Of a stretch of 26,813 nt of DNA, positions 6,822 to 24,861 are shown piece after piece (position 1 is the first letter of the stretch; the number at the start of each line of letters is the position of its first letter). Location of the stretch: the IMG/VR virus record IMGVR_UViG_3300015171_000027, positions 1 through 26,813 of that record, one strand, 5' to 3'. Made by a program: the position numbers and the translations under genes. The stretch is from a virus. A model generated the notes under the pieces. The model was not told the DNA's origin. It did not search any database and was given only the letters and a program-made list of their open reading frames with translations.

Positions 6822-7048
6822 AACTGAGAAGCGTGAACTTCGTGCAGGGCGTCCAGTTGCCTGGCAACGGTGGCGCGGTTGAGCGGTTCCTCGAGACCAC
6901 ACGCAACAAGTTCAGCGTGTCGCTGGACTACGCGGACGGCTTCGTGACCATTGGTCGCCCTGGCAAGGGGCGCATCCTGGTGCCGCTCGTCAACGTGCAG
7001 TGCCTTGAGCCGGACGACGACGTAGCGCCTAGCACCGTCAAGAAGTAG
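6818..7048 (+). CDS. Conserved phage hypothetical protein upstream of large terminase
   Basis: The 76-residue product starts at GTG in a GTGA overlap, seven bases after AGGAG (6806-6810). It is mostly beta-like: SVNFVQGVQLPGNGG, then SVSLDYADGFVTIGRPG and ILVPLVNVQCLEP. Small beta-rich proteins of this kind sit beside terminase genes in many phages and have no assigned role that I know. Its TAG shares one base with the terminase GTG, so the two are probably translated together. Confidence 0.65.
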   Translation: MKLRSVNFVQGVQLPGNGGAVERFLETTRNKFSVSLDYADGFVTIGRPGKGRILVPLVNVQCLEPDDDVAPSTVKK

Positions 7049-8466
7049 TGGCAGACCGTCGCCTGCTCGCCGAGTTCGAGCGGGTAGATGCGGAGTGGCG
7101 TAAGCGGCAGTCCAAGGGCGACCCGCTCTCGTTCAGCCCTCACAAGCCGACCGGCAAGCAGAAGGAATTCCTCGCCCTAGAATGCTTCGAGGCGCTCTAC
7201 GGCGGAGCGGCAGGGGGCGGCAAGAGCGATGCGCTTCTCATGGCTGCCTTGCAGTACGTGCACGTGCCAGGCTACGCGGCGCTCATCCTGCGACGCACCT
7301 ACGCGGATCTTGCGCTGCCTGGCGCCATCATGGATCGGGCCAAGGAGTGGCTCATCGCCAAGGGCGTACCCTGGAATGACCAGGAGAAGCGCTTCCGGTT
7401 CCCCTCGGGCGCTACGCTGACGTTCGGCTACCTAGATACGGAGCGTGACCGATACAGGTACCAGGGCGCCGAACTTCAGTTCATCGGCTTCGATGAGCTG
7501 ACGCAGTTCCCGGAGCAGTGGTACCGCTACCTGCTATCGCGTCTGCGACGCGTACAGGGCGCAGTTGTCCCTCTGAGAGCGCGAGGGGCCACTAACCCGG
7601 GTGGCCTGGGCCACGATTGGGTCAGGCGGCGATTCATCGACGGGGACGGCTCGAGGGCGTTCGTCCCCGCCTCTCTGTCGGACAACACGTTCCTGGACGC
7701 CGACGAATACCGGCTCGCACTGTCGCAGCTAGACTCGGGCACGAGGCGTCAACTCCTTGACGGCCTATGGGTCAGAGACTCCGGTGGCCTTGTCTATCAG
7801 TATGACGACGCCCGGAACGGCATCGACGCCGCTCCGCCACTGGAGCATCACCTGCTCGGCATCGACTACGGCGTGACGGATGCCACGGCGTTCACCGTCG
7901 TAGGCTGGCGGCTGCACGACCCTACGGTCTACGTCGTAGAGTCGTACAAGCGGACCGGCATGAGCCCGAGTGACGCGGCTGTAGAGGCTAAGGCGCTCGT
8001 CGCGAAGTACGCCCCGGTGCAGATCGTCGGCGACACGGGCGGGCTAGGCAAGGGCTTCGCGGAGGAGGCCAGGCGCCGCTTTCAGTTGCCCATTGAAGCC
8101 GCGGAGAAGACGAACAAGCGCGGCTACCAGTCGCTGCTGAATGGCGATCTCGAGGCGTCGCCCCCTCGCATTCGCGTCGTGCGGTCCACATGCAAGGAAC
8201 TGATCGACGAGTGGCACGAACTTCCTTGGGAGGAAGATCGTAGTGCCGAGTCGGAAGGCTTCGACAACCACTGCGCCGACTCTGCCCTCTATTCCTGGCG
8301 TGCGTGCATTGCCTACCCTGAGCGCGAGCGCGAAGTGCAGCCGCTGCCAGGGACCGAGGCCTTCGCCGCTGCCGAGCATGCGCGGATGCTCGAGTACCTA
8401 GAGCGCGAAGTCGAACAGGCCAAGAACGCGGACCACGTCAACGACGTCGCATCGTTTTTCGATTGA
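7048..8466 (+). CDS. terL: Large terminase subunit (ATPase-nuclease)
   Basis: The 472-residue product is the motor that packages DNA into the head and cuts it. Walker A is GGAAGGGKS at 52-60, Walker B is FIGFDE at 145-150 with E150 as the likely catalytic residue, and the coupling motif is ATNPGG at 181-186. The C-terminal RNase H-like nuclease has D273 in GIDYG, D339 in IVGDTGG, and a DNHCAD segment with D416 and D421. All key residues are present and the length is normal. It starts at a GTG overlapping the previous TAG by one base. The C-terminal 40 residues are Glu-rich and may contact the portal. Confidence 0.96.
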   Translation: MADRRLLAEFERVDAEWRKRQSKGDPLSFSPHKPTGKQKEFLALECFEALYGGAAGGGKSDALLMAALQYVHVPGYAALILRRTYADLALPGAIMDRAKEWLIAKGVPWNDQEKRFRFPSGATLTFGYLDTERDRYRYQGAELQFIGFDELTQFPEQWYRYLLSRLRRVQGAVVPLRARGATNPGGLGHDWVRRRFIDGDGSRAFVPASLSDNTFLDADEYRLALSQLDSGTRRQLLDGLWVRDSGGLVYQYDDARNGIDAAPPLEHHLLGIDYGVTDATAFTVVGWRLHDPTVYVVESYKRTGMSPSDAAVEAKALVAKYAPVQIVGDTGGLGKGFAEEARRRFQLPIEAAEKTNKRGYQSLLNGDLEASPPRIRVVRSTCKELIDEWHELPWEEDRSAESEGFDNHCADSALYSWRACIAYPEREREVQPLPGTEAFAAAEHARMLEYLEREVEQAKNADHVNDVASFFD

Positions 8467-8478: not shown

Positions 8479-8712
8479 CTGAATAAGACAGATCTGCGTC
8501 GCCTTGACGCACTGGCTGCCTGGATGCGAGAGCACGGCGCCGAACACGTTGTCCTAGAGGCCGACAGGCTCGAGGTGCGCCTAGGGCCTGCCCCGCTGCC
8601 TCCTCCTGCGCCTCCCGTGCAGATTACCGACGAGCATGTCCGGCGCTCTCTCGAGGACGCCAAGCGCGACTACGAGGCCGTGCTGTTCGCCTCGAGTGAG
8701 GGCCTCCGATGA
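8479..8712 (+). CDS. Small protein between terminase and portal, probable CTG start
   Basis: From ATG 8524 the product would be 62 residues, but the frame is open back to the terminase stop and the sequence from CTG 8479 reads LNKTDLRRLDALAAWMREHG, a helix continuous with the rest. The 77-residue form resembles short phage proteins that sit between terminase and portal and start in the same manner. The middle has a Pro-rich linker (PAPLPPPAPPV), then a helix ending in SSEGLR. GAGG at 8465-8468 precedes the CTG. The stop overlaps the portal ATG as ATGA. Function is unknown; a packaging accessory role is inference from position. Confidence 0.6.
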   Translation: MNKTDLRRLDALAAWMREHGAEHVVLEADRLEVRLGPAPLPPPAPPVQITDEHVRRSLEDAKRDYEAVLFASSEGLR

Positions 8713-10625
8713 AGGGCAGTTGGAAGGCTCAGGGCGGCAAGTCTGCTCAATGGTGGTTACCCGCGTTCGAAGATGACCGCGCCGTCGCTATCACGCAGGT
8801 CGTCAAGCGAATCCGCGACGCGCAGACGGGACTTCGTGACCGTTACCTGAAGTACGCGCGCCTCTATGGCAACGCGATGCTCGTCGGCCTGTCGCCGAGG
8901 AACTACGCGCGCACAATGGGCGGCAATAGCCGACTCGCGTTCAACGTCGTCAAGACGTGCTGCGATGCCTACGTCGCCAAGATCACGAAAGACCGCCCCA
9001 AGGTCACCTTCGTGACATCCGGTGGCGATTGGGACCTTCAGCGGCGCGCGGAGCAGAACGATAAGTTCGTCGAAGGCCAGTTCTACGAGTGCGACCTCTA
9101 CGAGAAGGACCCGCTGCTTTGCCTCGATACCGCGGTATTCGGCCAAGCATGGGCAAAGACCTACGTAAAGGGCAAGGGTAAGACTGAGCGCATCCACATC
9201 GAGCGCGTGAAGCCGTGGGAGGTAGTCGTAGACGAGGAAGAGGCCTCCGACGCGCAGCCGCGCAACCTCTATCAGTGCCGATACGTTGACCGCGCCGTAG
9301 TGCAGGCCTGGTATCCGAAGGTAGAGGGGCTCGACGGCGTCAAGGCGGAGCGCTTCGCCGAGGACGAGGCGTTCGACGTCGACACGACGAGTGACCAGCT
9401 CCTGGTCATCGAGGCGTGGCATCTGCCGAGCGGTCCTGACGAGACGGATGGGCGGTGGTGCGCTGCCGTCGGCGACGTCCTCCTGTTCGACGAGCCGTAC
9501 ACCGACGAGACGTTCCCACTCGAGCCGCTCTGGAGGCAGAAGCCGCTCAATGGGATGTACGGCATCGGGCTCGCTCAGGAGCTTGAGGGCATCCAGTACG
9601 AGATCAACATCCTACTGCAAAAGATTCAGTACTCGCACCACTTGCTGGGCGCTGGCCACTGGCTAATCCAGAAGGGCAGTACGAACAAGCAGAAGTTCGA
9701 CAACCAGATCGGCAGCATCATCGAGTACGTCGGCACCCGTCCCGAGTTGGTGACGGGCATGCTGGTCAGCCCCGAGATCTATCAGCACCTAGACCGCCTT
9801 TACGGCAAGGCCTTCGAGATCTCCGCCATCAGCCAGTTGTCGGCGCAGGGCTTGAAGCCCGCGGGACTCGACTCGGGCGAAGCGCAGCGCGTTTACCTCG
9901 ACACGCAGGCCGAGCGCTTCCAAGTCTCCTACAACGAGTACCAACATTTCCACTTGCGCCTAGCGCGTCAAGTGATGCGGGCCGCGCGGAAGATAGCCGC
10001 GCGCAACCCGTCCTTCGCGGTGAAGGCGACCGGCAAGAACCGGATGCAGAAGGTCATATTCAGTGACGTCGAACTCCAAGACGACGAGTACATCCTGAAG
10101 CTCTATCCGACGAACGCGCTGGCCAAAGACCCCGCTGCGAGGATTGCCCAGGTCACCACGTTCGCCGATGCAGGCTGGATTGACCCGAACGACGCTAAGC
10201 GGTTGCTCGACTTTCCCGATCTCGAGGCAGTCAGCAACCAGGAGAACGCCTCCTACAACCTCGTGATGGATCTGATCTCGGACATCAAAAACGAGGGCAC
10301 ATACTCGGGTCCTGAGCCGTTCATGAATCTTCAGCAGGCGCTGAAGATGTTCCAGATGGGTTACCTCCAGGCCAAGCGCGACGCTGTCCCTGAGGACCGC
10401 CTCGAGTTGATGCGCCAGTGGATGACCGAGGCCAACGACATGTTGGCTGGCGACCAAGCGCAGTTGCCGCCCGGTCCCGATGCCGGCGCTCCGCCTGGCC
10501 AACCTCCCCCTCCTGGTGCGCCCCCCGGCGCTCCGATGCCTGGCGACCCGAATGCCCCGCCAGGGCCAATGACACCTGCAATGCCGCCCCCCGATCCTAA
10601 CGGCGGCGGAGTACCCCCTCAGTGA
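8709..10625 (+). CDS. Portal protein with proline-rich C-terminal tail
   Basis: The 638-residue product forms the ring at the head vertex through which DNA enters and leaves. The N-terminal half carries typical portal features: helical start (VVKRIRDAQTGLRDRYLKYARLYG), SRLAFNVVKTCCDAYVAKI, then beta-rich wing sequence with PWEVVVDEEEA and PLWRQKPLNGMYGIG. The long stem helices (LAQELEGIQYEINILLQK, later ISAISQLSAQGLKPAG) follow. Length and order fit podovirus-like portals. Residues 586-638 are a low-complexity tail with 24 prolines in 53 residues, which I do not associate with the portal fold. ATG overlaps the upstream stop. The gene lies just after the terminase and before the scaffold, as expected. 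Confidence 0.9.
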   Translation: MKGSWKAQGGKSAQWWLPAFEDDRAVAITQVVKRIRDAQTGLRDRYLKYARLYGNAMLVGLSPRNYARTMGGNSRLAFNVVKTCCDAYVAKITKDRPKVTFVTSGGDWDLQRRAEQNDKFVEGQFYECDLYEKDPLLCLDTAVFGQAWAKTYVKGKGKTERIHIERVKPWEVVVDEEEASDAQPRNLYQCRYVDRAVVQAWYPKVEGLDGVKAERFAEDEAFDVDTTSDQLLVIEAWHLPSGPDETDGRWCAAVGDVLLFDEPYTDETFPLEPLWRQKPLNGMYGIGLAQELEGIQYEINILLQKIQYSHHLLGAGHWLIQKGSTNKQKFDNQIGSIIEYVGTRPELVTGMLVSPEIYQHLDRLYGKAFEISAISQLSAQGLKPAGLDSGEAQRVYLDTQAERFQVSYNEYQHFHLRLARQVMRAARKIAARNPSFAVKATGKNRMQKVIFSDVELQDDEYILKLYPTNALAKDPAARIAQVTTFADAGWIDPNDAKRLLDFPDLEAVSNQENASYNLVMDLISDIKNEGTYSGPEPFMNLQQALKMFQMGYLQAKRDAVPEDRLELMRQWMTEANDMLAGDQAQLPPGPDAGAPPGQPPPPGAPPGAPMPGDPNAPPGPMTPAMPPPDPNGGGVPPQ

Positions 10626-11654: not shown

Positions 11655-12908
11655 ATGGGTACTAATTTCGACATCACGGCAGCAACGCCGGTTCTCAAGC
11701 AGCGGTACACGAAGAAGAAGATCCTCACCCTCGCCTATACCGATCAGCCCTTCTGGGCCGCGGTTAGCAAGAACGAGAGCGGCGGAGGCATCTCGTACAA
11801 CGTTCCGATGCGGAATGCGCTTCCGCAGACGCGGTCCGCGGCGTTCGCCAACTCGCAAGCCTCGTTCGCTCAGGCTGGCGGCAGTTCGGTCTACAACAAC
11901 TTCGCGGTCACCTACAAGGAGGACTACGCGACGGCTAACATCACGGGTCAGGCGATCGACCGCGCCAACGGCGACATGAATGCGCTCGTTGACGTCCTCA
12001 CGAACGAGATTGACGGCGCGCTGCTTACGGCGGGCCGCTCGCTCGGCATCTCGATGTTCCGCAACGGCGGCGGCGCGCGTGGCCAGATCTCGGCGGGGTC
12101 CACCGTGGGCTCTACGACGATCACGTTAGCCAATCCGACCGACGTGACGAACTTCGAGGTCGGCATGGCGCTCCAACTGTCTGCCGCGGACGGTACCAGC
12201 GGCGCGGTACGCGCTGGCCAGGTGTTCGTCCAGGCGATCGATCGCGACCTTGGTACGCTCACGGCGTCTACGACGCTCGGAGGCGCGGCGGCCAACTGGA
12301 CTGCTGGCGTCGCTGCGGCGGCTGCCTCGGACTACATCTTTCAGTACGGCGACTTCGGCGCCATGTTCACCGGCGTCGCTGGATGGGTGCCGGCTGTCGC
12401 GCCGACGTCCACGCTCTTCTTCGGCGTTGACCGCTCGACGGATGCGACTCGCCTCGGCGGCGTACGATTCCCTGGCAACGGCGCTCCGTTTGAGGAAACG
12501 CTCATCGACGCGGCGGCGCGTCTCGGCCGTGAAGGCGCGAAGGTGGACAATACGTACGTCAACCCGCTTGACTACGCGTCGCTCGTCAAGGCCCTCGGCG
12601 CGAAGGTCATCTACGACCGCTCAACGGCGTTCGACATGCCGGAGATCGGCTGGGAGGCCGTCAAACTGACCGGGCCTAAGGGGCCGATCAAGGTCATCAG
12701 CGACGTCAACGTGCCGAAGGGCACGGCGTACATGATGACGATGTCGACGTGGGAGTTCGTCTCGATGGGCGGCGCCCCGAAGATCATCAACCTCGATGGC
12801 AACAAGATGCTTCGCCAGGCGACGGCGGACGCGTACGAGGTTCGCATTGTCACGCGAGGCAACCTCACCTGCTGCGCTCCGGGCTGGAACGCGGTCATCA
12901 CGTTCTGA
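11655..12908 (+). CDS. Major capsid protein, HK97-fold, P22-coat-like
   Basis: The 417-residue product follows the scaffold gene. The N-terminal arm (FDITAATPVLKQRYTKKKIL) is followed by a region like the E-loop (SKNESGGGISYNVPMRNALP). A helix (NALVDVLTNEIDGALL) resembles the spine helix, and the C-terminal half carries the A- and P-domain strands (MPEIGWEAVKL, ISDVNVPKGTAYM). About residues 145-215 are an extra beta-rich stretch (GSTTITLANPTDVTNFEVG, then VQAIDRDLGTLTAST), in the manner of the insertion domain of P22 coat protein. No protease gene adjoins and no cleavage site is obvious. GGAG lies ten bases before the ATG. The capsid call is firm, the P22-like subtype less so. Confidence 0.88.
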   Translation: MGTNFDITAATPVLKQRYTKKKILTLAYTDQPFWAAVSKNESGGGISYNVPMRNALPQTRSAAFANSQASFAQAGGSSVYNNFAVTYKEDYATANITGQAIDRANGDMNALVDVLTNEIDGALLTAGRSLGISMFRNGGGARGQISAGSTVGSTTITLANPTDVTNFEVGMALQLSAADGTSGAVRAGQVFVQAIDRDLGTLTASTTLGGAAANWTAGVAAAAASDYIFQYGDFGAMFTGVAGWVPAVAPTSTLFFGVDRSTDATRLGGVRFPGNGAPFEETLIDAAARLGREGAKVDNTYVNPLDYASLVKALGAKVIYDRSTAFDMPEIGWEAVKLTGPKGPIKVISDVNVPKGTAYMMTMSTWEFVSMGGAPKIINLDGNKMLRQATADAYEVRIVTRGNLTCCAPGWNAVITF

Positions 12909-13660: not shown

Positions 13661-14359
13661 ATGAGCCGTAGCGTTTCACTGACGAATCTCATCACTCGCG
13701 TGCGGCAACGCGCGGACATCGAGAGCGACTTGCTGCGCTTTACCGACGCGGAGATCACGACGAATCTCAACGAGTCGATCGCCGAGCTCTACGACATCAT
13801 CCTTAGCGCCTACGGGCAGGACTACTTCCGCTCGACGTACGCCATCACGCTCGTCGCCGGGCAGTCGGTCTACTCGCTGCCGGTGTCGTTCCTGTCGCTC
13901 ATCAGCGTGGACATCTTCTTCGGCACGACGACGAATTGGGTACAGACGGTCGCGCCGTACATGGAGAACGAGCGCAATTGGTACAAGTTCGCTGCTGGCC
14001 TCACGATGGCCTCGCCCTCGTACTACCGTCTTCAGGGCGCAAACATCGCGTTCATCCCGGTCCCTAACGGCACATACACCGCGAGCATCAACTATATCCC
14101 GACCTCGCCTCTGCTTGTCGTGGGCTCAGACACGTTCGACGGCATCAACGGATGGGAAGAGTTCGCCGTGCTCGACGCCGCGATCAAATGCCTCCTAAAA
14201 GACGAGGAGTTCGCCACGATTACCGTGCTCGAGCAACGTAAGAGCGCCATCGCTCAGCGCATACGGGACCGTGCTACGCAGCGCGACGCAGGGCAGCCCG
14301 ACCGCGTGCACGACGTCACCTCTGGCAACCGCTACGGCTACGGGAGCGGTTGGGAATGA
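13661..14359 (+). CDS. Head-tail connector / adaptor protein
   Basis: The 232-residue product follows GAGG with a spacing of six to seven bases. It opens with a helix pair (SLTNLITRVRQRADIES, then DAEITTNLNESIAELYDII), then beta strands (YAITLVAGQSVYSLPVSFLS). These are the layout of adaptor proteins of podoviruses such as T7 gp11 and P22 gp4, which join portal to tail nozzle. The middle has strands with aromatic residues (NWYKFAAG, SYYRLQGANIAFIPV). The C-terminal helix (VLEQRKSAIAQRIRDRA) is followed by a Gly/Tyr-rich end. The assignment is by layout and context and would be firmer with a structure search. Confidence 0.6.
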   Translation: MSRSVSLTNLITRVRQRADIESDLLRFTDAEITTNLNESIAELYDIILSAYGQDYFRSTYAITLVAGQSVYSLPVSFLSLISVDIFFGTTTNWVQTVAPYMENERNWYKFAAGLTMASPSYYRLQGANIAFIPVPNGTYTASINYIPTSPLLVVGSDTFDGINGWEEFAVLDAAIKCLLKDEEFATITVLEQRKSAIAQRIRDRATQRDAGQPDRVHDVTSGNRYGYGSGWE

Positions 14360-14835
14360 CGGTCACGGTCAAGGGGACCACGTTCGTCAACGCCGGGCTG
14401 CCAGCGGCGGCTAACGGCGCGCTGACGCTGACCCGCGTGCCTACGTCGGCCTTCCGACGAGAGCGCCTTGACGAGTCTATTCCGGCCCCTGTCGCACGCG
14501 TCATCTACCAGCTCCAAGAGAACCTCCACGAAGTGTCGTCGAGCGTGCAATCTCTACCTGAGAGCGGGCCGCGCACCTACTTCAAGGACGTCGCTTTCAC
14601 GTCAGGCGTTGGCAAGGTGCTGGCTCACCTGATGGGAGTCGCGGCGAGTGCGGCCAACGCGTTCGCACCGTCTGCCTCGCCCGTGGTCAGCGACCCGACG
14701 CAGATTCGCTTCGAGGTCTTGAACCAACGCACTGCCGCGGGCTCTTGCTACCGGCAAGCAATCGACGCCAGGACGATAACGCTCGTCCCTAACGCCACCT
14801 TCACCGGCGACGTTCGCCTATTCGTGATCCCGTGA
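14356..14835 (+). CDS. Structural protein between connector and nozzle, unknown
   Basis: The 159-residue product starts at the ATG of an ATGA overlap; an upstream in-frame TTG is not preferred. The N-terminus is beta-like (TVTVKGTTFVNAG), then a helix with SFRRE-type basic residues (VARVIYQLQENLHEV). The last 60 residues are beta-rich (IRFEVLNQRTAAG, RTITLVPNATFTGDVRLFVI) and resemble a small jellyroll or fibre-like domain. It is likely part of the tail or head-tail join by position. No family is recognised. Confidence 0.55.
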   Translation: MTVTVKGTTFVNAGLPAAANGALTLTRVPTSAFRRERLDESIPAPVARVIYQLQENLHEVSSSVQSLPESGPRTYFKDVAFTSGVGKVLAHLMGVAASAANAFAPSASPVVSDPTQIRFEVLNQRTAAGSCYRQAIDARTITLVPNATFTGDVRLFVIP

Positions 14836-17800
14836 GCGGCGAGCTAGTCCAGCTGCCGTTCGGCGGCGGCATCGATGAGAGCGTTGACGACTCCCGTTGC
14901 CCTCCCGAACGCATGCGCCTCGCGCAGAACGTCGTATTCAGCGGCGGCGCGGTGTCGAAGCGCAACGGCTTCACATCGATGGCGACGGGCCTCATCGGCG
15001 GCGGCACGCTGAGCGCCATTCGCTCGCTGTCGACATTCAAGAGCGTCCCCCTAACGACGGACGCGGACAACGCCTATAGCTACGTCGCGGCGGCTGGCGC
15101 GTGGAACAACGTGGGCCGAGCGTCGCCTTGCATGGCGTCGCGCTCCGAGTTCGCGGCGAACGAGTCGCCTATCGCAGACGTCGCCGAGACTAACGGCTAC
15201 CGATGCGTCGCATACCAGCGGATTGCGCTCGCTCCGTCTGCATCGCAGGGCGCATTCTACGCGACCATCACGGATGCAACGACGGGCGCGCTAGTCAATC
15301 AATCGCAGGTGTCGCTCGCCGGCTCGTACGCCCCTGCCGGCGCGCAGATGAAGGTCATCGCGTGCGGCAACGTCTTCGTCGTCATCTACCAGAACCCGGC
15401 GCAGTCGGCCCTATACGCTCGCTCCTTCGACACCACGACGCAGACGTGGAGCGCGATTACGGCGCTATCGATCACGAGCGGGACGACGCTCATATTTGAC
15501 GCTTGCCCGATCGTGGGGTCGAGCAACTTCGCCGTCATCTGGTGCGACGTAAACACGCTCAATATTTACGTTCAGTCATTCTCTAGCGCATTCGCATTCG
15601 TCGCCGGCCCGACGCTCATCGTCGCCGCTCCGGCAGCGGCCATCCCGGCTATTAGGGCCACGGCTGGCGGCACGGCGTGGTGCGCGTGGTCTCCTACCGT
15701 GGCGGGCGCACTTCGGGTGTATGCCGCGAACCTGAACGCCAATACGCTAGCCATCACGCAAGCGGCATGGTTCGTGAGAGCAGTGGCTTCGGTGTCAGCG
15801 ATCGTGGACGCCGGATTCGTGCTTGGTATCGAGCCGTATGCTGGAACTTCCTCCTTCGCCAAGATCGTTTACTCGGTCGCGCAGAACGCCGCTCTAGGTC
15901 TAGGGCTTGCGTGGTCTAACATTTCGTCTGTAGGCACGGCTTCGTACCACTCGGACTTCATGCCCGGCTGGAGCATTGTCTCTCGGCCGTTCACGGGGCC
16001 TACGGGCGCAATCTACGTGTTGGCGCTTTGGTTTCAACAGTACCAGTCGACGCAGTGTCTTCTGGAACTGCCTGCGTCCGAGGCGTCTCACGTGCAGGCA
16101 CTGCCGATGGCAACCGTCGCGGTGCGCGCAAGCTACCCTTCGCCTTTGAGGCTCGCCAGCGGCGCGTCATACTTCCCCAACTACGGCGGCATCGGGCGGC
16201 AGAACAGCGTCACGAATCCTGGCAATCCGAGTGCCACCAAGTTCAACACGATCTGCTTCACGCTAAGCACCACGGGTACGATCGGCCAGCAGTTGGCCAC
16301 GTTCGACTTCAACCACCCCGCTCAGTGGCAGTCCGTCGAACTTGGCGGAGCTACCTACCAGGCTGGCGGAGCGCCGATGGCTTTCGACGGCGTGAAAACC
16401 GGCGAGCTTGGCTACGTGACTTCGCACCCTGACACCTCGTTTCAGTCCTCGTTCGCCGCTGGCTCTGGCCTGTACCCGCAAGTCTACCGGTACGTCGTGG
16501 TATACGCGCAGACGACGGCTACGGGCGAGGTCGTGCGCTCCGCACCGAACACGTTCGCGCCCACCGTCGTGGACATCACGGCCGGCACGGCTGGACCGAC
16601 GAATCAGGCTCGCGTCGTCGTTTGGCCGCTGAGGGCGACCCATCGCCAGAGCGTGGCTACCGGCTATACGCCGGTCACGATCGAGATCTACCGCACGCAT
16701 TGGGACGTCGCTACGTCGACGATGAGCACGACGTACTACCTATGCGGCAAGATTCCCAACGACCTGACCGTCAATACGATCACGTACGTGGACGACGTCG
16801 CGACCCAAGGCATCAACGAGGTGAACGTAGCCACCGGCACGCCGCTCTATACGACGGGTCAAGTGCTGGACAGCAACTGCCCTCCGTCGCTCCGCTTCCT
16901 CTGCGTGCATAACCAGCGCATCTTCGGCATTGGTGACGACGGGCTTACGCTCTGGTACACCACGCCGTACGTCGCGGGCGAGCAACCGAGGTGGAATGAC
17001 GCGCTTCGCATATCCGTGCCACCTGGCGGCGGTGATCTCGTCGCGCTGGCGTCGCAGGACGGCAAACTGTACGCGTTCAAGAAGGATCGCGGATACGTCA
17101 TCTACGGCGACGGTCCGAGCGACACTGGCGCTGGCGCTGACTTCTCTATCCCTCAAGAACTGCCGTTCGGCCTCGGGTGTGTCGACCCTCGCTCGATTGG
17201 AACGATGCCGCTCGGTGTCGTGCTCCTGACGGCGAAGGGCCTGTACCTGCTAGCCAGAGACGGCACGGCCTCGTGGATTGGCGACAGGGTACAGCGAACG
17301 CTCGCCACGACGCCCTACGTGACGTCGATTGACCACGTGGAGAGCGTTGGGCATGTACGCTTCGCGCTGTCATCCACGGGGCAACCTAACGCCTCTGGTG
17401 CGGTACTCGTATGGGACTATCGCCACGATACGTGGTCCACGTGGCTCGTGAGCACGACCGTAGGTGGTAGCAGTTGCGGCCCGTTCGCTGCCGCCACCGC
17501 AAGCGACGGCACCTACTACGCCGCAATTCGAGGCGCCTCCCTTGGAGCGGTATACTTCTACGACGCCACGTCATACCTAGACGACGGCGGCACGTGGGTC
17601 ACGCTCAACGTGCTGAGCGGCTGGGTCGCGCCGCAAGGGCAGCAGGGGCTCACGCGACTTCAGCGAATCCAAGTGCTGGCCACGAAGAAGAGCTCTCACG
17701 CGCTGCAACTGACACCCTACCGAGACTACGGCGGAGCGGATGCACCGTACACGTTCAGCAGCGTGGAGATTGCCGCGCTACCCGGGCGCGAACAGTTGTC

Positions 17801-17969
17801 CTTTGCCCCGCTAGTGCGCAAGATTGAGGCTATCAGCGTAGGCGTAACCGACGCCGCGCCATCGGGCACGCTCGGCACTGGTCAGGGCGTCGTCATCAAC
17901 GGACTGATGCTCGTCGTTACGCCGAAGCAACTGCCCTTCAACATCCCCTCCAGCCAGAACAAGGCCTAG
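14832..17969 (+). CDS. Large beta-propeller-type tail protein (nozzle-like)
   Basis: The 1045-residue product is the largest gene here. It starts at GTG in a GTGA overlap. The first 50 residues read LVQLPFGGGIDESVDDSRC, later GGAVSKRNGF, a start common in phage proteins that ring the tail exit. The rest is almost all beta strand, with repeated segments of the kind seen in propeller blades (VFVVIYQNPAQSALYARSFD, AVIWCDVNTLNIYVQSFS, VLVWDYRHDTWSTWLV). A tail-tube or nozzle part, comparable in place to T7 gp12 or P22 gp10, is the best reading. It is longer than those, so it may carry an extra receptor- or wall-facing part. No hydrolase motif is recognised. Confidence 0.65.
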   Translation: MSGELVQLPFGGGIDESVDDSRCPPERMRLAQNVVFSGGAVSKRNGFTSMATGLIGGGTLSAIRSLSTFKSVPLTTDADNAYSYVAAAGAWNNVGRASPCMASRSEFAANESPIADVAETNGYRCVAYQRIALAPSASQGAFYATITDATTGALVNQSQVSLAGSYAPAGAQMKVIACGNVFVVIYQNPAQSALYARSFDTTTQTWSAITALSITSGTTLIFDACPIVGSSNFAVIWCDVNTLNIYVQSFSSAFAFVAGPTLIVAAPAAAIPAIRATAGGTAWCAWSPTVAGALRVYAANLNANTLAITQAAWFVRAVASVSAIVDAGFVLGIEPYAGTSSFAKIVYSVAQNAALGLGLAWSNISSVGTASYHSDFMPGWSIVSRPFTGPTGAIYVLALWFQQYQSTQCLLELPASEASHVQALPMATVAVRASYPSPLRLASGASYFPNYGGIGRQNSVTNPGNPSATKFNTICFTLSTTGTIGQQLATFDFNHPAQWQSVELGGATYQAGGAPMAFDGVKTGELGYVTSHPDTSFQSSFAAGSGLYPQVYRYVVVYAQTTATGEVVRSAPNTFAPTVVDITAGTAGPTNQARVVVWPLRATHRQSVATGYTPVTIEIYRTHWDVATSTMSTTYYLCGKIPNDLTVNTITYVDDVATQGINEVNVATGTPLYTTGQVLDSNCPPSLRFLCVHNQRIFGIGDDGLTLWYTTPYVAGEQPRWNDALRISVPPGGGDLVALASQDGKLYAFKKDRGYVIYGDGPSDTGAGADFSIPQELPFGLGCVDPRSIGTMPLGVVLLTAKGLYLLARDGTASWIGDRVQRTLATTPYVTSIDHVESVGHVRFALSSTGQPNASGAVLVWDYRHDTWSTWLVSTTVGGSSCGPFAAATASDGTYYAAIRGASLGAVYFYDATSYLDDGGTWVTLNVLSGWVAPQGQQGLTRLQRIQVLATKKSSHALQLTPYRDYGGADAPYTFSSVEIAALPGREQLSFAPLVRKIEAISVGVTDAAPSGTLGTGQGVVINGLMLVVTPKQLPFNIPSSQNKA

Positions 17970-17971
17970 CA

Positions 17972-18907
17972 ATGCCCTATCAGCCGCAGATGAACGAAGA
18001 TCAGGCGCGCGCGGCTGCACTGGCGCGGCAACAGGCGCAGAGTGCCAGCGAGAAGGCCAACAAGGGATACCAGAGCCCGATAGACTCGAATATCAACCCG
18101 ACGGGCGGGCCAGGTGGCCTCAACTCGGTTGACTACCAGTCGGGCAATCAAGCACGGCACCGGGCAGGCCTCACATACGGCGATACCTACGGGGTCCTGA
18201 GCGGGACCGAACTCGGGGAGTACAACGGCGGGGCGAACGACATCGCCGGTCGGCTCTCGGGGATGGGGGCAAGCTTTCAGGGCCGCAGTGGGCCGCAGAT
18301 CTTCGACCGATACGCGCCGGCCAACAGGTACGCGCAAGGCCAGTCTCGAGACCAGTCGGACCAGGCGCTTGGCATGCTAGCGGGCGCGGCGAATGGCAAC
18401 GCGCCGAGCGCCGCTGCCACGCAGATGGGCATGGGCATTGACTCCTCGCTCGCGTCGCAGATGGGAGCCGCGAACGGCGTGCGAGGGCCGAACGCGGCGC
18501 TGGCCAATAGGATGTCCGCACTCCAAGGCCAGCAGGCGCAGATGCAGGGCGTCGATGCTGGCTCGAACGCGCGCGCCCAGGAGATGGCGCAGGCTCGAGG
18601 GTCGTACGGTCAGGCAGACATCGGCCAGCGAGCGCAAGATCTCCAGCTCGCTGGCTTGGACCAGAAGTCAGCGCTGGCACAAGCGGCGATTGAGAGCGGC
18701 CAGATGACGCAAAACGACCGCATGCAGGCGCAGTACGATCAGCTCGGCCTCGATGCGCAGTCGGCGCAGTTGCAGGCGCAGGCGCAGAAATACGGCGCGG
18801 ACCGAGGCGTCAACGCGGCAGACAGCGCGCAGACGTCCCAAAACATAATGAGTGCAATCGGCGCGGGCGCAGCAACGCTCGGGTCAATCGCGCTGATGGT
18901 GGCCTGA
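17972..18907 (+). CDS. Gln/Ala-rich virion protein, paralogue 1
   Basis: The 311-residue product starts two bases after the nozzle-gene stop. It is rich in Ala, Gln, Gly and Asn, largely helical, and ends in a hydrophobic Ala/Gly segment (about residues 292-311, SAIGAGAATLGSIALMVA) that could cross a membrane. Residues near 65-110 contain YGVLSGTELGEYNGGANDI, shared almost exactly with the next gene. The rest aligns at a lower level (GQADIGQRAQDLQLAGLDQ against the partner's LAQRTQDLQLSGMD). The composition and location resemble internal virion proteins that podoviruses eject into the cell envelope. Function is inferred, not shown. Confidence 0.6.
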   Translation: MPYQPQMNEDQARAAALARQQAQSASEKANKGYQSPIDSNINPTGGPGGLNSVDYQSGNQARHRAGLTYGDTYGVLSGTELGEYNGGANDIAGRLSGMGASFQGRSGPQIFDRYAPANRYAQGQSRDQSDQALGMLAGAANGNAPSAAATQMGMGIDSSLASQMGAANGVRGPNAALANRMSALQGQQAQMQGVDAGSNARAQEMAQARGSYGQADIGQRAQDLQLAGLDQKSALAQAAIESGQMTQNDRMQAQYDQLGLDAQSAQLQAQAQKYGADRGVNAADSAQTSQNIMSAIGAGAATLGSIALMVA

Positions 18908-18908
18908 T

Positions 18909-19877
18909 ATGCCGAATCTCTACGACGACTCCGGGCAAGCAGCGTACGAGGCGGAGCAGAACGCACGCAACGCCGCATATAGGGACCAGCAGGCCAAGAA
19001 GGCGCGCGAGGCGCAGAACCGCGGCTACCAGGATCCGACGAACGCGAACGTTGGGCCGAACGGCACCAATGCCGTCAACTACGGCGCTGGCAACTACGCA
19101 CGCCAGCGCGCCGGATTGACCTACGGCGACTCGTACGGCGTGCTTAGCGGTACGGAGCTAGGAGAGTACAACGGCGGCGCGAATGACATATCGAACCGAT
19201 TGTCCGGCATGGGAGCGGGCTACCAGGGGCGGCAAGGCGCGCAGATTGTCGACCCATACGACGCGCAGAACCGAGCGGCGCAAGCGTACTCTCGCCAGCA
19301 GTCTAATCAGCAGCTAGGCATGCTGGCCGACACGGCTAACGGTCTTCACCCTAGCATTGCCCAGAACCAAATGGCCAACGGTCTCAATTCCTCGTTGGCC
19401 GCTCAGCAGGCAGCGGCGAACGGTACTCGAGGCGGAGCGCAGAATCTTGCCATGGCGCAGCGACAGGCCGCGACCAACGGGCAACAGATGCAGATGCAGG
19501 GCGGCAATCAGCAGAATCTGCTCAGGGCGCAGGAGATGACGCAAGCGCGAGGCGCCTACTCGCAGGCCGCGTTGGCGCAGCGTACTCAGGATCTGCAACT
19601 GTCCGGAATGGATGCCGCTCAGGCCGCGAACCAAGCGACGATCGAGCAGGCTCAGATGGCTGAAAACGATCAGATGCAGAGCCAGTACGATACGATGGGT
19701 CTCAACGCGCAGAAGGCTCAGCTAGCCGCGAATACGTCCAAATACGGCTCCGACCTTGGTATAGCGATCCAGAGCGGCGCGCAAAACAGCGCCAACGTGG
19801 CCGCTGGCGTCGGCGCTGCCGGCGCGGCTGTCGGCACTGCCGCTAAGATCTACGGCGGTCTCGGAGAGCACGCGTGA
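18909..19877 (+). CDS. Gln/Ala-rich virion protein, paralogue 2
   Basis: The 322-residue product is a tandem paralogue of the gene just upstream, one base apart. Over a 47-residue core from RAGLTYGD to the QI ending, 40 residues are identical, while the codons of that core differ at most third positions; this marks an old duplication kept under selection. It has a longer, more basic N-terminus (YRDQQAKKAREAQNRG). The C-terminal 25 residues are Gly/Ala-rich (AAGVGAAGAAVGTAAKIYGG), again a possible membrane segment. Two related proteins of nearly equal length may form a mixed assembly or act at successive steps of DNA ejection. Its stop overlaps the GTG of the next gene. Confidence 0.6.
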   Translation: MPNLYDDSGQAAYEAEQNARNAAYRDQQAKKAREAQNRGYQDPTNANVGPNGTNAVNYGAGNYARQRAGLTYGDSYGVLSGTELGEYNGGANDISNRLSGMGAGYQGRQGAQIVDPYDAQNRAAQAYSRQQSNQQLGMLADTANGLHPSIAQNQMANGLNSSLAAQQAAANGTRGGAQNLAMAQRQAATNGQQMQMQGGNQQNLLRAQEMTQARGAYSQAALAQRTQDLQLSGMDAAQAANQATIEQAQMAENDQMQSQYDTMGLNAQKAQLAANTSKYGSDLGIAIQSGAQNSANVAAGVGAAGAAVGTAAKIYGGLGEHA

Positions 19878-20641
19878 GCAACCTGCCCAGCGGCTTAGGC
19901 CAGCGTCCCTCTATCGCTCAGATGCAGTCGATGCCGGCCCCAGCGCGCCCGCTCAGCGCGCCGACGCTGGCCCCTCGCCCCATCGCGCCGCCTGCTACGA
20001 ACGCGATGGCGTCACCGGTACAGCAGCCCTACAAGCCGAACCCGGCTGGCGCGGCGTATACGGGGCCGAGTGACCATATACTCGGCGCCGTCAACACGAA
20101 TCCAACGGGCTTCCGGCCTGCGCCCATCCCGCGGCCTGCTCCGGTGTCGACAGGCATCCCAGCGAGTCAACTAGGACCCGGAACGCTGGGACCGTCGCCA
20201 TCGAACCGAGCCCCGGTCGCGCCCATGCTTGGCGCTCCGCAGAATCCGGTGGCGACGCCGTTCGCTCCCGTTCAGCAGATGCCTCCGCCCCCTGCCGGCT
20301 TCCCCGATCCGAGCGGCTACGGCTCGATGATGCTCAGCGACGTCAACGCGAAGAGCGACGTGCGCCGCGAGTCTGCCGCCGATGGCTTCCTCGCATCGCT
20401 GACGCCGCATTCGTACCGCTACACCGATCCGAGCGACGAGCCCACGAGTGAGCCAAGCGGCGGAAGGTACCTCGGCATCCTGGCGCAGAACGTCGAGCGG
20501 AGCCCCACGGGCGACACGATCGTCAAGGATACGCCGCGAGGCAAGATGCTCGAGGGTCACGCGCTGATGAGCGCACTCGCCGCGGGTGAAGGCCGATTGC
20601 ACGAGCGGCTAAAGGCCCTCGAGACGCAGAGGAAGAAGTAA
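19874..20641 (+). CDS. Virion protein with C-terminal peptidase S74-type domain
   Basis: The 255-residue product starts at GTG in a GTGA overlap. The first 145 residues are Pro/Ala-rich and low in complexity. From about residue 150 the sequence reads MMLSDVNAKSDVRR, then SLTPHSYRYTDPS, GRYLGILAQNVERSP, IVKDTPRGKML and a final helix (GRLHERLKALE). This is the pattern of the S74-type intramolecular chaperone domain. S155 and K160 (S-D-V-N-A-K) match the Ser-Lys pair that self-cleaves in tailspike and endosialidase proteins. In those proteins the domain aids trimer assembly and is then released. Here the partner part is a disordered tail rather than a beta-helix. The TAA shares one base with the next ATG. 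Confidence 0.72.
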   Translation: MSNLPSGLGQRPSIAQMQSMPAPARPLSAPTLAPRPIAPPATNAMASPVQQPYKPNPAGAAYTGPSDHILGAVNTNPTGFRPAPIPRPAPVSTGIPASQLGPGTLGPSPSNRAPVAPMLGAPQNPVATPFAPVQQMPPPPAGFPDPSGYGSMMLSDVNAKSDVRRESAADGFLASLTPHSYRYTDPSDEPTSEPSGGRYLGILAQNVERSPTGDTIVKDTPRGKMLEGHALMSALAAGEGRLHERLKALETQRKK

Positions 20642-22350
20642 TGGCCACCTACGCCGAACAACTGCGCAACGCCTACAACTCGCGCGTGGGCGGAACTGCG
20701 CCAGAGGTGCCGTCGAACGACGCTGACGTCCTCGCTCGCCTCGAGCAGGGCAACGCGCCGGTGGCCACTCCTGCGCCACCGTCTGCGGGCTTTCCTAGCG
20801 ATCGGCCCGGAGTCGGCATGTTGGGCCGCGGAGCGCCAGGATCGCCCGAGGCGGACCCCGCAGCGTGGGGACTCAGTCCTGAGCAGGGCGCGGCCTATCA
20901 GCAGTTCTCGACGGCTCCCGCTGGCAAAGCGCCTCCGGAGGCAGTGGCGGCACTCGGCGAGAAGGTCCAGCCGATGTCTCCGCCCGCTGGCACTGCCGGC
21001 GCGATGTCGCCGGGCGATCTGACGTTCGGCGGCCGACCCGATGCGGGCGGCGTCAGTCTTCCCAAGCCGGTGACCATCGGCGCGCACGAGCAGGCGCTTG
21101 TTGACCCGAAGCGGCAGAAGGAGATCGCGTCGGCGCTCGACGCGCAGCGGACTGCCCTTGGCGACGCTCGCGCTGCGGAGACGCACGCCGCTCAGAATGC
21201 CGGCGTAGCCGCTGGCCTCAAGGCGCAGGCCCTTGACGATCAGTCGAAAGATATCACCGGCAAGGCGAACGCTCGCGCGGCCGACCAGCAGCGGATGCAG
21301 GACGCCATCGACTCGATGTCCAAGGACGTGGCGGATCAGAAGATTGACCCGGACCACTACATCAAGAACGCCAGCACGGCGAGCAAGCTCGGCTTCATCA
21401 TTGCCGCTGGCCTCGGAGGCTACGCATCGACGCGCAGCGGCGGCCCCAACGTGGCCGTTCAGATGCTGCAAAAGAGCATAGACGACGATATCGCCGCTCA
21501 GCGGAACGCCATCGAGTTGAAGAAGGGCCGCGTCGGCGACATGAAGGGCGCTCTTGCAGAGGCATATCGGCGCACGGGTAACCTAGAGCAAGCCGAGGCC
21601 GTGGCGCGAGTCGCCGTCAACAACGCGATCGACGCCAAGGCGGCGCAATACGCCGCGGGCGCGAACAGCGAGAAGGTCAACGCAAACTACGAGCAACTGA
21701 GCGCCGGTCTCCAAGCGCAGAACGCGGAGACAATGGCCAAGATGAACAAGTACGTGCCGGCGCAGACGGTCGCGGGCGGCGGCGGCATCGGCAAAGGCAG
21801 CGTCGACAATAAACTCGTCGTCCCGATGGGAGATGGGAAGGGCATTGTCGCGCGCAGCGAGCAAGAGGCGCAGAAGATCCGAGAGAAGCTTGCGGCGAAG
21901 GAGACGATCACGCAGGGACTGGCCGAACTGAAGTCAATGGATCAGGGCGCCACGTTTGCCGATCGCGCGAACCCGATGTCCGCCTTCAACCAGCAGAAAT
22001 CCGCGAAGCTCGCTCAGCTCCGCACGCGCGCTACCGTGTTCGAGGGACAGGGCGCAATGAGCAAGGGCGACGCAGACAACACGAACGAGGCGATCGGCGC
22101 GCTTACCGGCCTCGCTCAGTACACCGGCAATCAGACGAAGATCATCGACAACGCCATCCACGGATTCAACGCCTCCGTTGAGCAGGAGTTGCGCGGTCAA
22201 GACGGTCTCGTTGTGCATCAGGGTATCGCGCAGGATGCACACGGCAACATCCAGCAGACGTGGACGCCTAGCGGAGAGTCATACGGCGCGAAGGCCAAGC
22301 CAGCGAACCCTGTCGACCCTAACAAGTTCATCAAGCCTGCCGGCAAGTAG
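20641..22350 (+). CDS. Large helical virion protein, likely ejected
   Basis: The 569-residue product starts at the ATG of a TAATG junction. The N-terminal 150 residues are Pro/Gly/Ala-rich with a proline-bearing segment (PAPPSAGFPSDRPG). Residues 155-245 and 270-345 are long helices (KRQKEIASALDAQRTALG, NAIELKKGRVGDMKGAL). Between them, about residues 249-262, lies a short Gly-rich hydrophobic stretch (KLGFIIAAGLGGYAS) that could insert in a membrane. No transglycosylase motif is visible. The mix of helices and a central hydrophobic stretch resembles internal virion proteins. I infer ejection into the envelope from composition and position. Confidence 0.6.
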   Translation: MATYAEQLRNAYNSRVGGTAPEVPSNDADVLARLEQGNAPVATPAPPSAGFPSDRPGVGMLGRGAPGSPEADPAAWGLSPEQGAAYQQFSTAPAGKAPPEAVAALGEKVQPMSPPAGTAGAMSPGDLTFGGRPDAGGVSLPKPVTIGAHEQALVDPKRQKEIASALDAQRTALGDARAAETHAAQNAGVAAGLKAQALDDQSKDITGKANARAADQQRMQDAIDSMSKDVADQKIDPDHYIKNASTASKLGFIIAAGLGGYASTRSGGPNVAVQMLQKSIDDDIAAQRNAIELKKGRVGDMKGALAEAYRRTGNLEQAEAVARVAVNNAIDAKAAQYAAGANSEKVNANYEQLSAGLQAQNAETMAKMNKYVPAQTVAGGGGIGKGSVDNKLVVPMGDGKGIVARSEQEAQKIREKLAAKETITQGLAELKSMDQGATFADRANPMSAFNQQKSAKLAQLRTRATVFEGQGAMSKGDADNTNEAIGALTGLAQYTGNQTKIIDNAIHGFNASVEQELRGQDGLVVHQGIAQDAHGNIQQTWTPSGESYGAKAKPANPVDPNKFIKPAGK

Positions 22351-22356
22351 CCGACA

Positions 22357-24861
22357 TTGAAGTTTTTCGACAAGACCGGGCAACCGGTAGACGTCCCCGA
22401 TGACCAGGCGCAGGCCGCTTTTCAGAGCGGTGACTTCGGCTTGCCCAAGGGCGCGACCTTGCCCGTTGTGGGCTCGGACGGGACGGTCGGGCACGTCGAT
22501 GCCGAGCACGCGAACGACGTGTTTGACGCGGGCGGTCGACTCGCCGCGCCCGAGGAGATCCACAAGGCCGAAGCGGAGGCCAAATACGGCGGCATTGGAG
22601 GCATGGCCGCCGCGGGTGGCGAGTCCTTCGCCCGAGGCCTCACCCTTGGGCTGAGCGACCCTCTCGCCATCGGCGCGGCTGGCATATCGGGCGGCGCGCA
22701 CGGCGAAGAGGAGATGCGCGCGCATCTCGCGGGTACCAAGGAGGCCAACCCGATTACGTCGGGCGTTGGCGAGGTCGCCGGTGTCATCGCCCCCTCCCTC
22801 GTCACGGGTGGCGCGGCGGCTGGCGTCGAAGGGGTCAACGCGGCTCGCCTTGCCGGTGAGGGCGTTGCCGCGGTACGCGAGGCCTCTACGCTCGGCAGAG
22901 TGACCGAAGGCGCCAAGGCGGCCCTCTCTGTCGCCGGTAAGCCCGTGTCGATGGTCAGCGAGGCCGGCGCGCTTGCGGAGCGCGGCGTCAAGGGGCTCCT
23001 CGGCGAAGGCGCGACGTCGCTCGCTGGCAAGATGGCGCAGACCATCGCCAAGAAGGGCACGCAAGGCGCTGTCGAGGGCGCGCTCTTCAGCGTCGCGAAC
23101 GAGGTCGATGAATCTGTACTCGGCGACACCGAACTGACCGGTGAGAAGCTACTCGCGGCGGCTGGCCATGGCGCGCTACTCGGCGGCACGCTGGGCGGTG
23201 TCCTCGGCGGCGCGGGCGAGCTCGGGTCGAGCGTCCTCGGCAAACTGTCGCCGAAGCTCCAGGGCGTAGCCGAAGAGCAGGCGTTCCGCTCCGTCAACGC
23301 ACGCAAGGCGTTCACCGCGCGCGCGGCGGACATCCCCGGTGGTTCGAAGGCGCTCGGCCGCGTCCTCCTGGACAACGACCTTATTCGCGTCGGCGACACC
23401 CTCGAGACAATCGCCCCTCGCCTCGCAGCGGCGAAGGAGTCCGCCGTTGACGAGCTGACGAAGGTGGTCAGTACCGTCGAGACGAAGGGCGTTCCCCTCG
23501 CTGACACGCTGAACGCACTCGAGAAGCGAGCGAGCGAATTCGACAGAAAACTGGGGTACGAAAGCGCGGCGAACGCCGTCCGGCAACAGCGTGAGAACCT
23601 GGCTCGCGTATTCGGCGCGGTAGGCGAGGACGGCAAGATCGTTCAAGCGCTCGTTGACCACACCTCCGTGCCGCTAGGCGATCTGCTGGCCGCGCGTCGC
23701 TCGCTCGAAGGCACGATCAACTGGCAGACGGATACCGTCGTCGCGCAAGGCCGCAAGGCAGCTGGCCGTACGCTCGAAGACATCGTCACGGAGCACGGGG
23801 AGCAGGCCGCGAAGGCTAGCGGCTCAACGTTCAAGGATGCCTACGCCACCGCAAAGCTACGGTTCCGGCAACTGTCGCTGCTAGACGAAGCCGCGCAGGA
23901 CTCGCTCAATCGGGCGAACGCCAACGCGGCGCACTCGCTGACAGACAAGATATTCGGAGCTGCCGGCTTCGCCGCTGGCGCCACGCACGGGCCACTGGGC
24001 GCTGTTGGCGGTCTCGCCATGGGCCAGGCGTCGAAGTTCGTGCGCGAGCGCGGTAACGCGGCATCTGCGGTGCTACTCGACAAGCTCTCGGCCCTCAGTG
24101 GCGTCGAGCGCGCCGCGCAGAAGGTCGACAGGCAGGTTGACCGAGGCGTCGCGGGCTTCTTCAAGCCAGGCGAGCGTGCCGCGATCAAGTTGAAGCCGAA
24201 GTACGAGGCGACCGAGACGGACAAGTCCGGTGGCCCCTATCGCTCACGCGTCGAGTCGGTCGCCCGCGCCGTTGCGAACGCGGACCATCACGCCGATGCG
24301 GCAGCCGCTGCGACTGCGGACATTCAGAACCACGCGCCGCAGACCGCTAACGCTTTCCAGCGAGCCGCGCTCCGCACGACGGCCTATCTACAGTCGCAGA
24401 TACCGCAAGGCCATCGCGACCTCCAGACCATCACGCCGCAGTTCGGGCAACCTCGCGTCAGCGACGCAGAGAAGGCGCGATTCAACCGCGTCATGGATGT
24501 CACGCATGACCCCCCGAGGCTACTCGAGCACATGGCGCGAGGGGTCTTGACGTTGGACGAGGTCAAGGCGGTCAAGCATACGTCGCCATCTCTCTACAAG
24601 GAGATGGTCACTAAGGTTCAGCACGAACTCTCGGTCCTGAAAAAGCCACTCTCGTACGATCAACGCAAGCAACTCGCGGTGTTCCTCGGTCAGCCAACCG
24701 ACGCGACCCTCGCGCCCGCGTTCATCGCTTCGATGCAGAAGAATTTCAGCACGCCGACAGAGAAGCCTCAGCAAACGCCAGGCATGCCGCAAGCGCCTAA
24801 GCGAATGCTGAGCGACAGCCTGTCTACGTCGACCGCGCTGTCCGGTCAGTCACGCCAGTAG
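22357..24861 (+). CDS. Large virion protein with glycine-rich hydrophobic segments, TTG start
   Basis: The 834-residue product begins at TTG 22357; the first in-frame ATG is about 84 codons later. The extra N-terminus reads MKFFDKTGQPVDVPDDQA, a start I have seen in phage virion proteins, so the TTG is favoured. Gly/Ala-rich hydrophobic segments lie at about residues 78-113 (GGIGGMAAAGG, AIGAAGISGG), 269-292 and 532-555 (FGAAGFAAGATHGPLGAVGG). Between them are long helical regions (LAAAKESAVDELTKVVST). This resembles ejected proteins that line a channel through the cell envelope. There is no clear enzyme domain. It ends the five-gene virion block; a 48-base gap follows. Confidence 0.62.
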   Translation: MKFFDKTGQPVDVPDDQAQAAFQSGDFGLPKGATLPVVGSDGTVGHVDAEHANDVFDAGGRLAAPEEIHKAEAEAKYGGIGGMAAAGGESFARGLTLGLSDPLAIGAAGISGGAHGEEEMRAHLAGTKEANPITSGVGEVAGVIAPSLVTGGAAAGVEGVNAARLAGEGVAAVREASTLGRVTEGAKAALSVAGKPVSMVSEAGALAERGVKGLLGEGATSLAGKMAQTIAKKGTQGAVEGALFSVANEVDESVLGDTELTGEKLLAAAGHGALLGGTLGGVLGGAGELGSSVLGKLSPKLQGVAEEQAFRSVNARKAFTARAADIPGGSKALGRVLLDNDLIRVGDTLETIAPRLAAAKESAVDELTKVVSTVETKGVPLADTLNALEKRASEFDRKLGYESAANAVRQQRENLARVFGAVGEDGKIVQALVDHTSVPLGDLLAARRSLEGTINWQTDTVVAQGRKAAGRTLEDIVTEHGEQAAKASGSTFKDAYATAKLRFRQLSLLDEAAQDSLNRANANAAHSLTDKIFGAAGFAAGATHGPLGAVGGLAMGQASKFVRERGNAASAVLLDKLSALSGVERAAQKVDRQVDRGVAGFFKPGERAAIKLKPKYEATETDKSGGPYRSRVESVARAVANADHHADAAAAATADIQNHAPQTANAFQRAALRTTAYLQSQIPQGHRDLQTITPQFGQPRVSDAEKARFNRVMDVTHDPPRLLEHMARGVLTLDEVKAVKHTSPSLYKEMVTKVQHELSVLKKPLSYDQRKQLAVFLGQPTDATLAPAFIASMQKNFSTPTEKPQQTPGMPQAPKRMLSDSLSTSTALSGQSRQ

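Follow-up and report, generated by a model that had tools for sequence, protein, structure and literature searches.

S74/ICA domains (PF13884) have been described as folding sensors of tailspikes, fibres and neck appendages, with MyRF as the exception. Self-cleavage requires a trimer, in which a Lys activates the Ser, and the cut precedes this Ser (PMC8326128; PMC3742443; PMC4690869). Cleavage of the T5 fibre relies on an Arg that a neighbouring chain contributes from its upstream fibre fold (PMC4690869), and in MyRF cleavage proceeds with hardly any contact to the stalk (PMC8326128). A second point of comparison is the ejection cassette of T7- and P22-type phages, with genes clustered in the order gp14-gp15-gp16 (PMC8954989). 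The gp14/gp7-type families diverge to approximately 8-12% identity, and homologues of T7 gp14 are predicted to have 2-5 transmembrane helices; the review of ejection proteins mentions no S74 for gp14-type proteins (PMC8954989). Our literature search for S74 on ejection or internal virion proteins, incomplete in coverage, found no report, and to our knowledge no ejection-type protein with S74 has been described.

Here, we analysed an entire IMG/VR record of 26,813 bases (the window; 64% GC), a contig with an incomplete right end, in which two tandem genes, A and B, are followed by an open reading frame (ORF) with an S74 domain (table 1). This domain shares its fold with those of the K1F endosialidase, the GA-1 neck appendage, the T5 L-shaped fibre and MyRF, and has the same Ser-Lys spacing (S155/K160 in the window, S911/K916 in endoNF, S587/K592 in MyRF; PMC8326128). 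It also shares, as predicted, the long C-terminal helix which makes up the core of the trimer in solved S74/ICA structures (PMC8326128). Unlike known S74 proteins, however, it follows no triple beta-helix, spike or fibre; S74 is preceded by a helical Ala/Gln-rich protein in relatives and by a Pro-rich arm, on its own ORF, in the window. A and B, on the other hand, resemble the T7 gp14/P22 gp7-type proteins in lying between a nozzle gene and two larger conserved genes, the latter equated with gp15 and gp16 by position only, and in being Ala/Gln-rich and helical with a hydrophobic segment. They differ in exceeding the gp14-type range of 181-240 aa (PMC8954989), in having fewer hydrophobic segments (one hydrophobic end in A, SAIGAGAATLGSIALMVA, and a weak one in B, with hydropathy taken over the C-terminal part only) and in giving no sequence or fold match to named ejection proteins when searched against Pfam, PHROGs and PDB sequences and with Foldseek. 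The third relevant system is the Kuravirus SU10, with which the window shares an SU10-type adaptor, a marginal match to the major capsid protein and a nozzle-type protein adjoining the cassette. Yet the nozzle-like protein of the window has no direct SU10 match, and nothing was found that ties the five ejection proteins of SU10 to A and B. Moreover, SU10 is an isolate, whereas the cassette proteins of the window lineage have no match among 50,697 phage records.

Gene order and the tandem pair

Table 1. Coordinates of the features in the window and in the proteins A, B and S74 ORF
Feature	Position	Strand	Remark
Terminase	7048-8466		
Portal	8709-10625		
SU10-type capsid match	11655-12908		Marginal
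SU10-type adaptor	13661-14359	+	PF24175, E 1.5e-18
161-aa ORF	14350-14835		Between adaptor and nozzle-like gene
Nozzle-like protein	14832-17969	+	1045 aa; directly upstream of A
Protein A	17972-18907	+	311 aa; helical Ala/Gln-rich, ejection-type; copy 1
Conserved core of A	18143-18283	+	Residues 58-104; common only to A and B
Family domain of A	18260-18841	+	Residues 97-290; common to relatives
GNAPSAAATQ	18395-18424	+	Within family domain of A
Hydrophobic C-terminus of A	18842-18904	+	Matches segment just before catalytic Ser of fused homologues
Protein B	18909-19877	+	322 aa; tandem paralogue of A
Conserved core of B	19089-19229	+	
Family domain of B	19206-19790	+	
S74 ORF	19874-20641	+	255 aa; separate gene; GTG start
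Pro-rich arm	19874-20335	+	Residues 1-154
GQRPSIAQMQ	19898-19927	+	Residues 9-18 of S74 ORF; A/B family signature motif
S74/ICA domain	20336-20638	+	Residues 155-255; long C-terminal helix
SDVNAK	20336-20353	+	Ser155, Lys160
569-aa protein	20641-22350	+	Conserved cassette protein; position of T7 gp15
834-aa protein	22357-24861	+	Conserved cassette protein; position of T7 gp16

The genes of this region are closely packed. The nozzle-like gene and A are 2 nt apart, A and B 1 nt, B overlaps the S74 ORF by 4 nt (GTGA), and the S74 ORF overlaps the 569-aa gene by 1 nt; the ORF coordinates thus bear out an earlier reading of the sequence alone, that the three genes at 17972-20641 overlap or abut. 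The 1045-aa protein, named nozzle-like for its position, matches a PHROG named internal virion protein. The 161-aa ORF had no relative among the loci fetched in the first set, and no fibre gene was identified within the contig. Further downstream, a 256-aa protein at 25320-26090 matches PHROG 10356 (virion structural protein, E 1.2e-13).

The sequence-only reading had also drawn attention to a core of 47 residues with 40 identities in A and B, to codons of this core differing mostly at third positions, and to an old duplication under protein-level selection. The core (A58-104/B61-107) is exactly as described, although the claim was understated: A and B are homologous over their full length, with 165 identities in 283 positions (58%; BLASTP E 4e-91). 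Among the 39 identical non-Met codons of the core, 26 have changed synonymously, and the values of pS and pN (0.84 and 0.10 in the core, 0.70 and 0.31 over the whole gene, with synonymous sites saturated) indicate that the duplication is old and the core held by selection on the protein. Gene conversion as the source of the conserved core was ruled out, since pS is higher there than elsewhere (0.67). A tree of 44 related domains groups A and B as sisters (support 100/98), in agreement with the proposed duplication. A single ancient duplication common to all tandem loci was likewise ruled out, given this sister relationship and the rejection of a grouping of the first copies of the window and of the contigs L109, L143 and L178 (AU p 2e-6). 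Judged from the tree, duplication arose more than once, the A/B pair being specific to the window lineage and L143 and L178 sharing an older event.

Single-sequence searches of viral contigs with A and B returned no relatives. Profile matches of the family fall in the gp14-type slot (first searched set, approximately 7,900 ORFs), and this slot specificity argues against a low-complexity artefact; the profile search placed a domain homologous to A and B in the module of the relatives, often fused to S74. The best-conserved positions of the family domain are G..PS.A, followed by R.QE. The AlphaFold2 model of A (mean pLDDT 71) consists of helices only, with a very long one at 175-310 and a region of low confidence at 32-87, the core being mostly without confident structure; a fold search with this model gave nothing meaningful. 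B has a marginal match to DUF6685 (E 0.014), and Pfam VirionAssem_T7 matches one homologue (E 0.007).

The S74 ORF and its fused relatives

The S74/ICA domain of the window is genuine. On its own, the window protein had no match to PF13884 at E<=0.1; its matches to homologues, however, reach E 2.4e-18, and 20 of 21 homologues match PF13884 (best 8.4e-11). The Ser-Lys pair of SDxxxK is nearly invariant in the 21 sequences, and the alignment of the profile to 3gud, the domain of the GA-1 neck appendage, begins at its first residue (SDERHK). In the AlphaFold2 model of the domain (pLDDT 80) the C-terminal helix occupies model residues 94-120, and the top four VIA-align hits are all known ICA structures (3gw6, Z 7.5; 7dc3, 7.3; 3gud, 6.3; 4uw8, 6.2; alignments spanning 77-91 residues), the next and unrelated hit scoring 3.3. 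The arm is unique in the set: Pro makes up 25% of the 150 residues preceding S74, where S74 proteins of the set have a median of 2%. An S74-type domain with its Ser-Lys pair, carried on a disordered arm in place of a tailspike, had been proposed from the letters of the DNA, and both elements hold.

Using the capsid, adaptor, nozzle-like and 834-aa proteins, the only queries that led to relatives, we fetched 122 non-redundant loci of related uncultivated podoviruses, so that the counts below depend on these queries; a portal search found no match. The module is conserved as a nozzle-like gene, one gene (at times with a small gene before it) and homologues of the 569-aa and 834-aa proteins. The single gene fuses the helical Ala/Gln-rich domain to a C-terminal S74 in 51 of the 122 loci, and 49 have the helical domain with no S74 detected, so S74 is dispensable for this slot. 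S74 without a detectable helical domain is found in 10 loci, a helical plus a fused gene in three and two helical genes in two, while six are cut by contig ends; two helical genes followed by a separate S74 are seen only in the window. The fused gene sits where A, B and the S74 ORF lie in the window, with the nozzle-like gene on one side and the two conserved large genes on the other, and the same parts encoded as one gene in the same place argue that the three genes of the window are one unit, as the sequence-only reading had supposed. It had also taken the grouping of the three genes as a point on which the idea could fail: in relatives the parts are linked more tightly, by fusion, and not less. 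The tandem arrangement fares less well, as most relatives carry a single copy, but copies in tandem do occur in five other contigs (L109, L143, L178, L133 and L210), the second bearing S74 in three. The contig nearest by summed scores, L084, has a fused gene, and the closest S74 domain to that of the window belongs to the fused L161/L177 (42% identity over 116 aa). In searches of the 50,697 records of isolated phages, neither A, the S74 ORF, the 1045-aa and 834-aa proteins nor the fused homologues of L084, L060, L178 and L029 had a match, and the isolates HTVC115P and CRP-3, which share only the terminase with the window, have neither the helical domain nor S74.

Two features may be traces of a split. 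In most fused homologues a hydrophobic Gly/Ala-rich segment stands immediately N-terminal of SDxxxK (e.g. GALGTAAGVMLM directly before SDK), and the similar end of A suggests that A stops about where the predicted cleaved product would end. Additionally, the S74 ORF opens with the family signature motif GQRPSIAQMQ. It is found in 50 of 94 family members against 57 of 13,057 ORFs overall, and arises in 0.28% of shuffles of this stretch; the S74 ORF was itself part of the alignment in which the motif was first spotted, and the counts came afterwards. The motif is probably a relic of a fused ancestor, and it suggests that the ORF descends from a fused gene and that erosion of the helical portion left the Pro-rich arm. 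As the parts are fused in relatives, the comparison suggests that the window phage encodes separately what self-cleavage may yield there. In three of the tandem contigs (L109:14340-15317, L143:13063-14226 and L178:11457-12662) copy 1 ends in a stub which keeps SDxRxK and 15-30 further residues, the rest of S74 being missing.

Two further observations concern the same slot. A small gene resembling GNAT acetyltransferases lies between the nozzle-like and S74-bearing genes in L022 (16089-16421), L060 (13759-14088) and L086 (13901-14287), which in T7 is the position of gene 13, presumably itself GNAT-like. In L100 (13584-15425), a protein of the helical family has an extra C-terminal region, CFPAGTPISMMDGSTTPIEDIEIGD, in place of S74, which by eye resembles a self-processing domain of the Hint/intein type.

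Proposed mechanism and rival explanations

Our best reading, to which we assign a probability of roughly 0.6, is that A and B are duplicate copies of an internal protein of the ejection type, placed where T7 has gp14, and that the self-cleaving chaperone of this protein is now a separate gene, with virion content, injection, trimerisation and cleavage as its putative elements. The region would be the "gp14 slot" in an ejection cassette of the podovirus type, running from the adaptor and the nozzle-like protein through A, B and S74 to the 569-aa and 834-aa proteins. Like T7 gp14, A and B would probably be carried in the head and injected, and would help to build the envelope channel. In most of the S74-bearing relatives the helical protein carries a C-terminal S74/ICA domain. 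If the known S74 mechanism applies, this domain would trimerise the protein while it assembles and would then release itself by a cut directly N-terminal of the Ser of SDxxxK, so that the mature protein has a hydrophobic end. In the window, A and B already end near the predicted cut point, and the S74, on its own ORF with the Pro-rich arm, may serve in trans as a trimeric factor for assembly or may process its own arm only. There is no counterpart of the upstream T5 Arg here, so cleavage is uncertain and could have been lost. Against this reading stand the lack of a sequence or fold match of A and B to named ejection proteins and the 49 relatives in which S74 was undetected.

Given that approximately 40% of relatives manage without S74, and that the part upstream of it has degraded to an arm seen nowhere else in the set, the S74 ORF might be a decaying, functionless remnant, shrinking after A and B duplicated and lost the need for it. 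We consider this unlikely for a gene which has an intact frame with a coding-type GC pattern (weaker in residues 76-150), retains Ser155, Lys160, the AQxxE region and the C-terminal helix, and is tightly coupled to B by the overlap. Equally improbable in our view is that A and B are minor tail, plug or scaffolding components below the nozzle, trimerised by S74 as fibres are. The phage S74 cases described do trimerise external fibre or spike proteins (PMC8326128; PMC3742443; PMC4690869), and A lies directly 3' of the nozzle-like gene; yet the model of A is all-helical, Ala/Gln-rich and without a beta-structured fibre domain, and the slot lies ahead of two large genes that are conserved, the arrangement of gp14-gp15-gp16 cassettes.

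The incomplete right end and the lack of an identified fibre gene leave some room for an S74 ORF that serves another protein, such as a tail fibre encoded off the contig, its adjacency to A and B being accidental; the covalent joining of S74 to an A/B-type protein in the same slot in more than 50 relatives makes this very improbable. As for an assembly or sequencing error, B and the S74 ORF do lie in different frames across their overlap, as if a frameshift had split a single B-S74 gene, but a stop closes the S74 frame about 10 codons upstream of its start, and the ORF opens with the signature motif and not with a continuation of the B C-terminus. We rejected this explanation, which we regard as having almost no chance of being correct.

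The fusion of S74 to a helical ejection-cassette protein in more than 50 distinct loci suggests that podoviruses may also use S74 to oligomerise internal proteins and to time their maturation. Such a role, if so, would bear on how ejection proteins assemble and stay soluble, and the gradation seen in nature, with fused, stub-bearing and split forms, offers a way into the role of cleavage.

Extra SDxxxK motifs in the linkers

Across 56 fused homologues, the linkers before the S74 start contain 64 extra SDxxxK motifs, against 2.5 expected by shuffles, with at least one in 30 proteins; in 400 other ORFs, taken as a control, 45 were counted against 41.8 expected. The enrichment is strong, and the motifs may be additional sites of processing or remnants left by repeated starts of the domain. 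A bolder proposal, which we hold as tentative and on balance doubtful, is that an uncultivated, widespread podovirus lineage uses S74 to build and mature an internal injected protein instead of a spike, that the extra motifs would be multiple cut sites excising the linker, and that the window phage would have replaced cleavage by separate genes. Arrays of extra motifs are seen in the linkers of L022, L010, L062, L109, L119, L138, L147, L155, L162 and L163.
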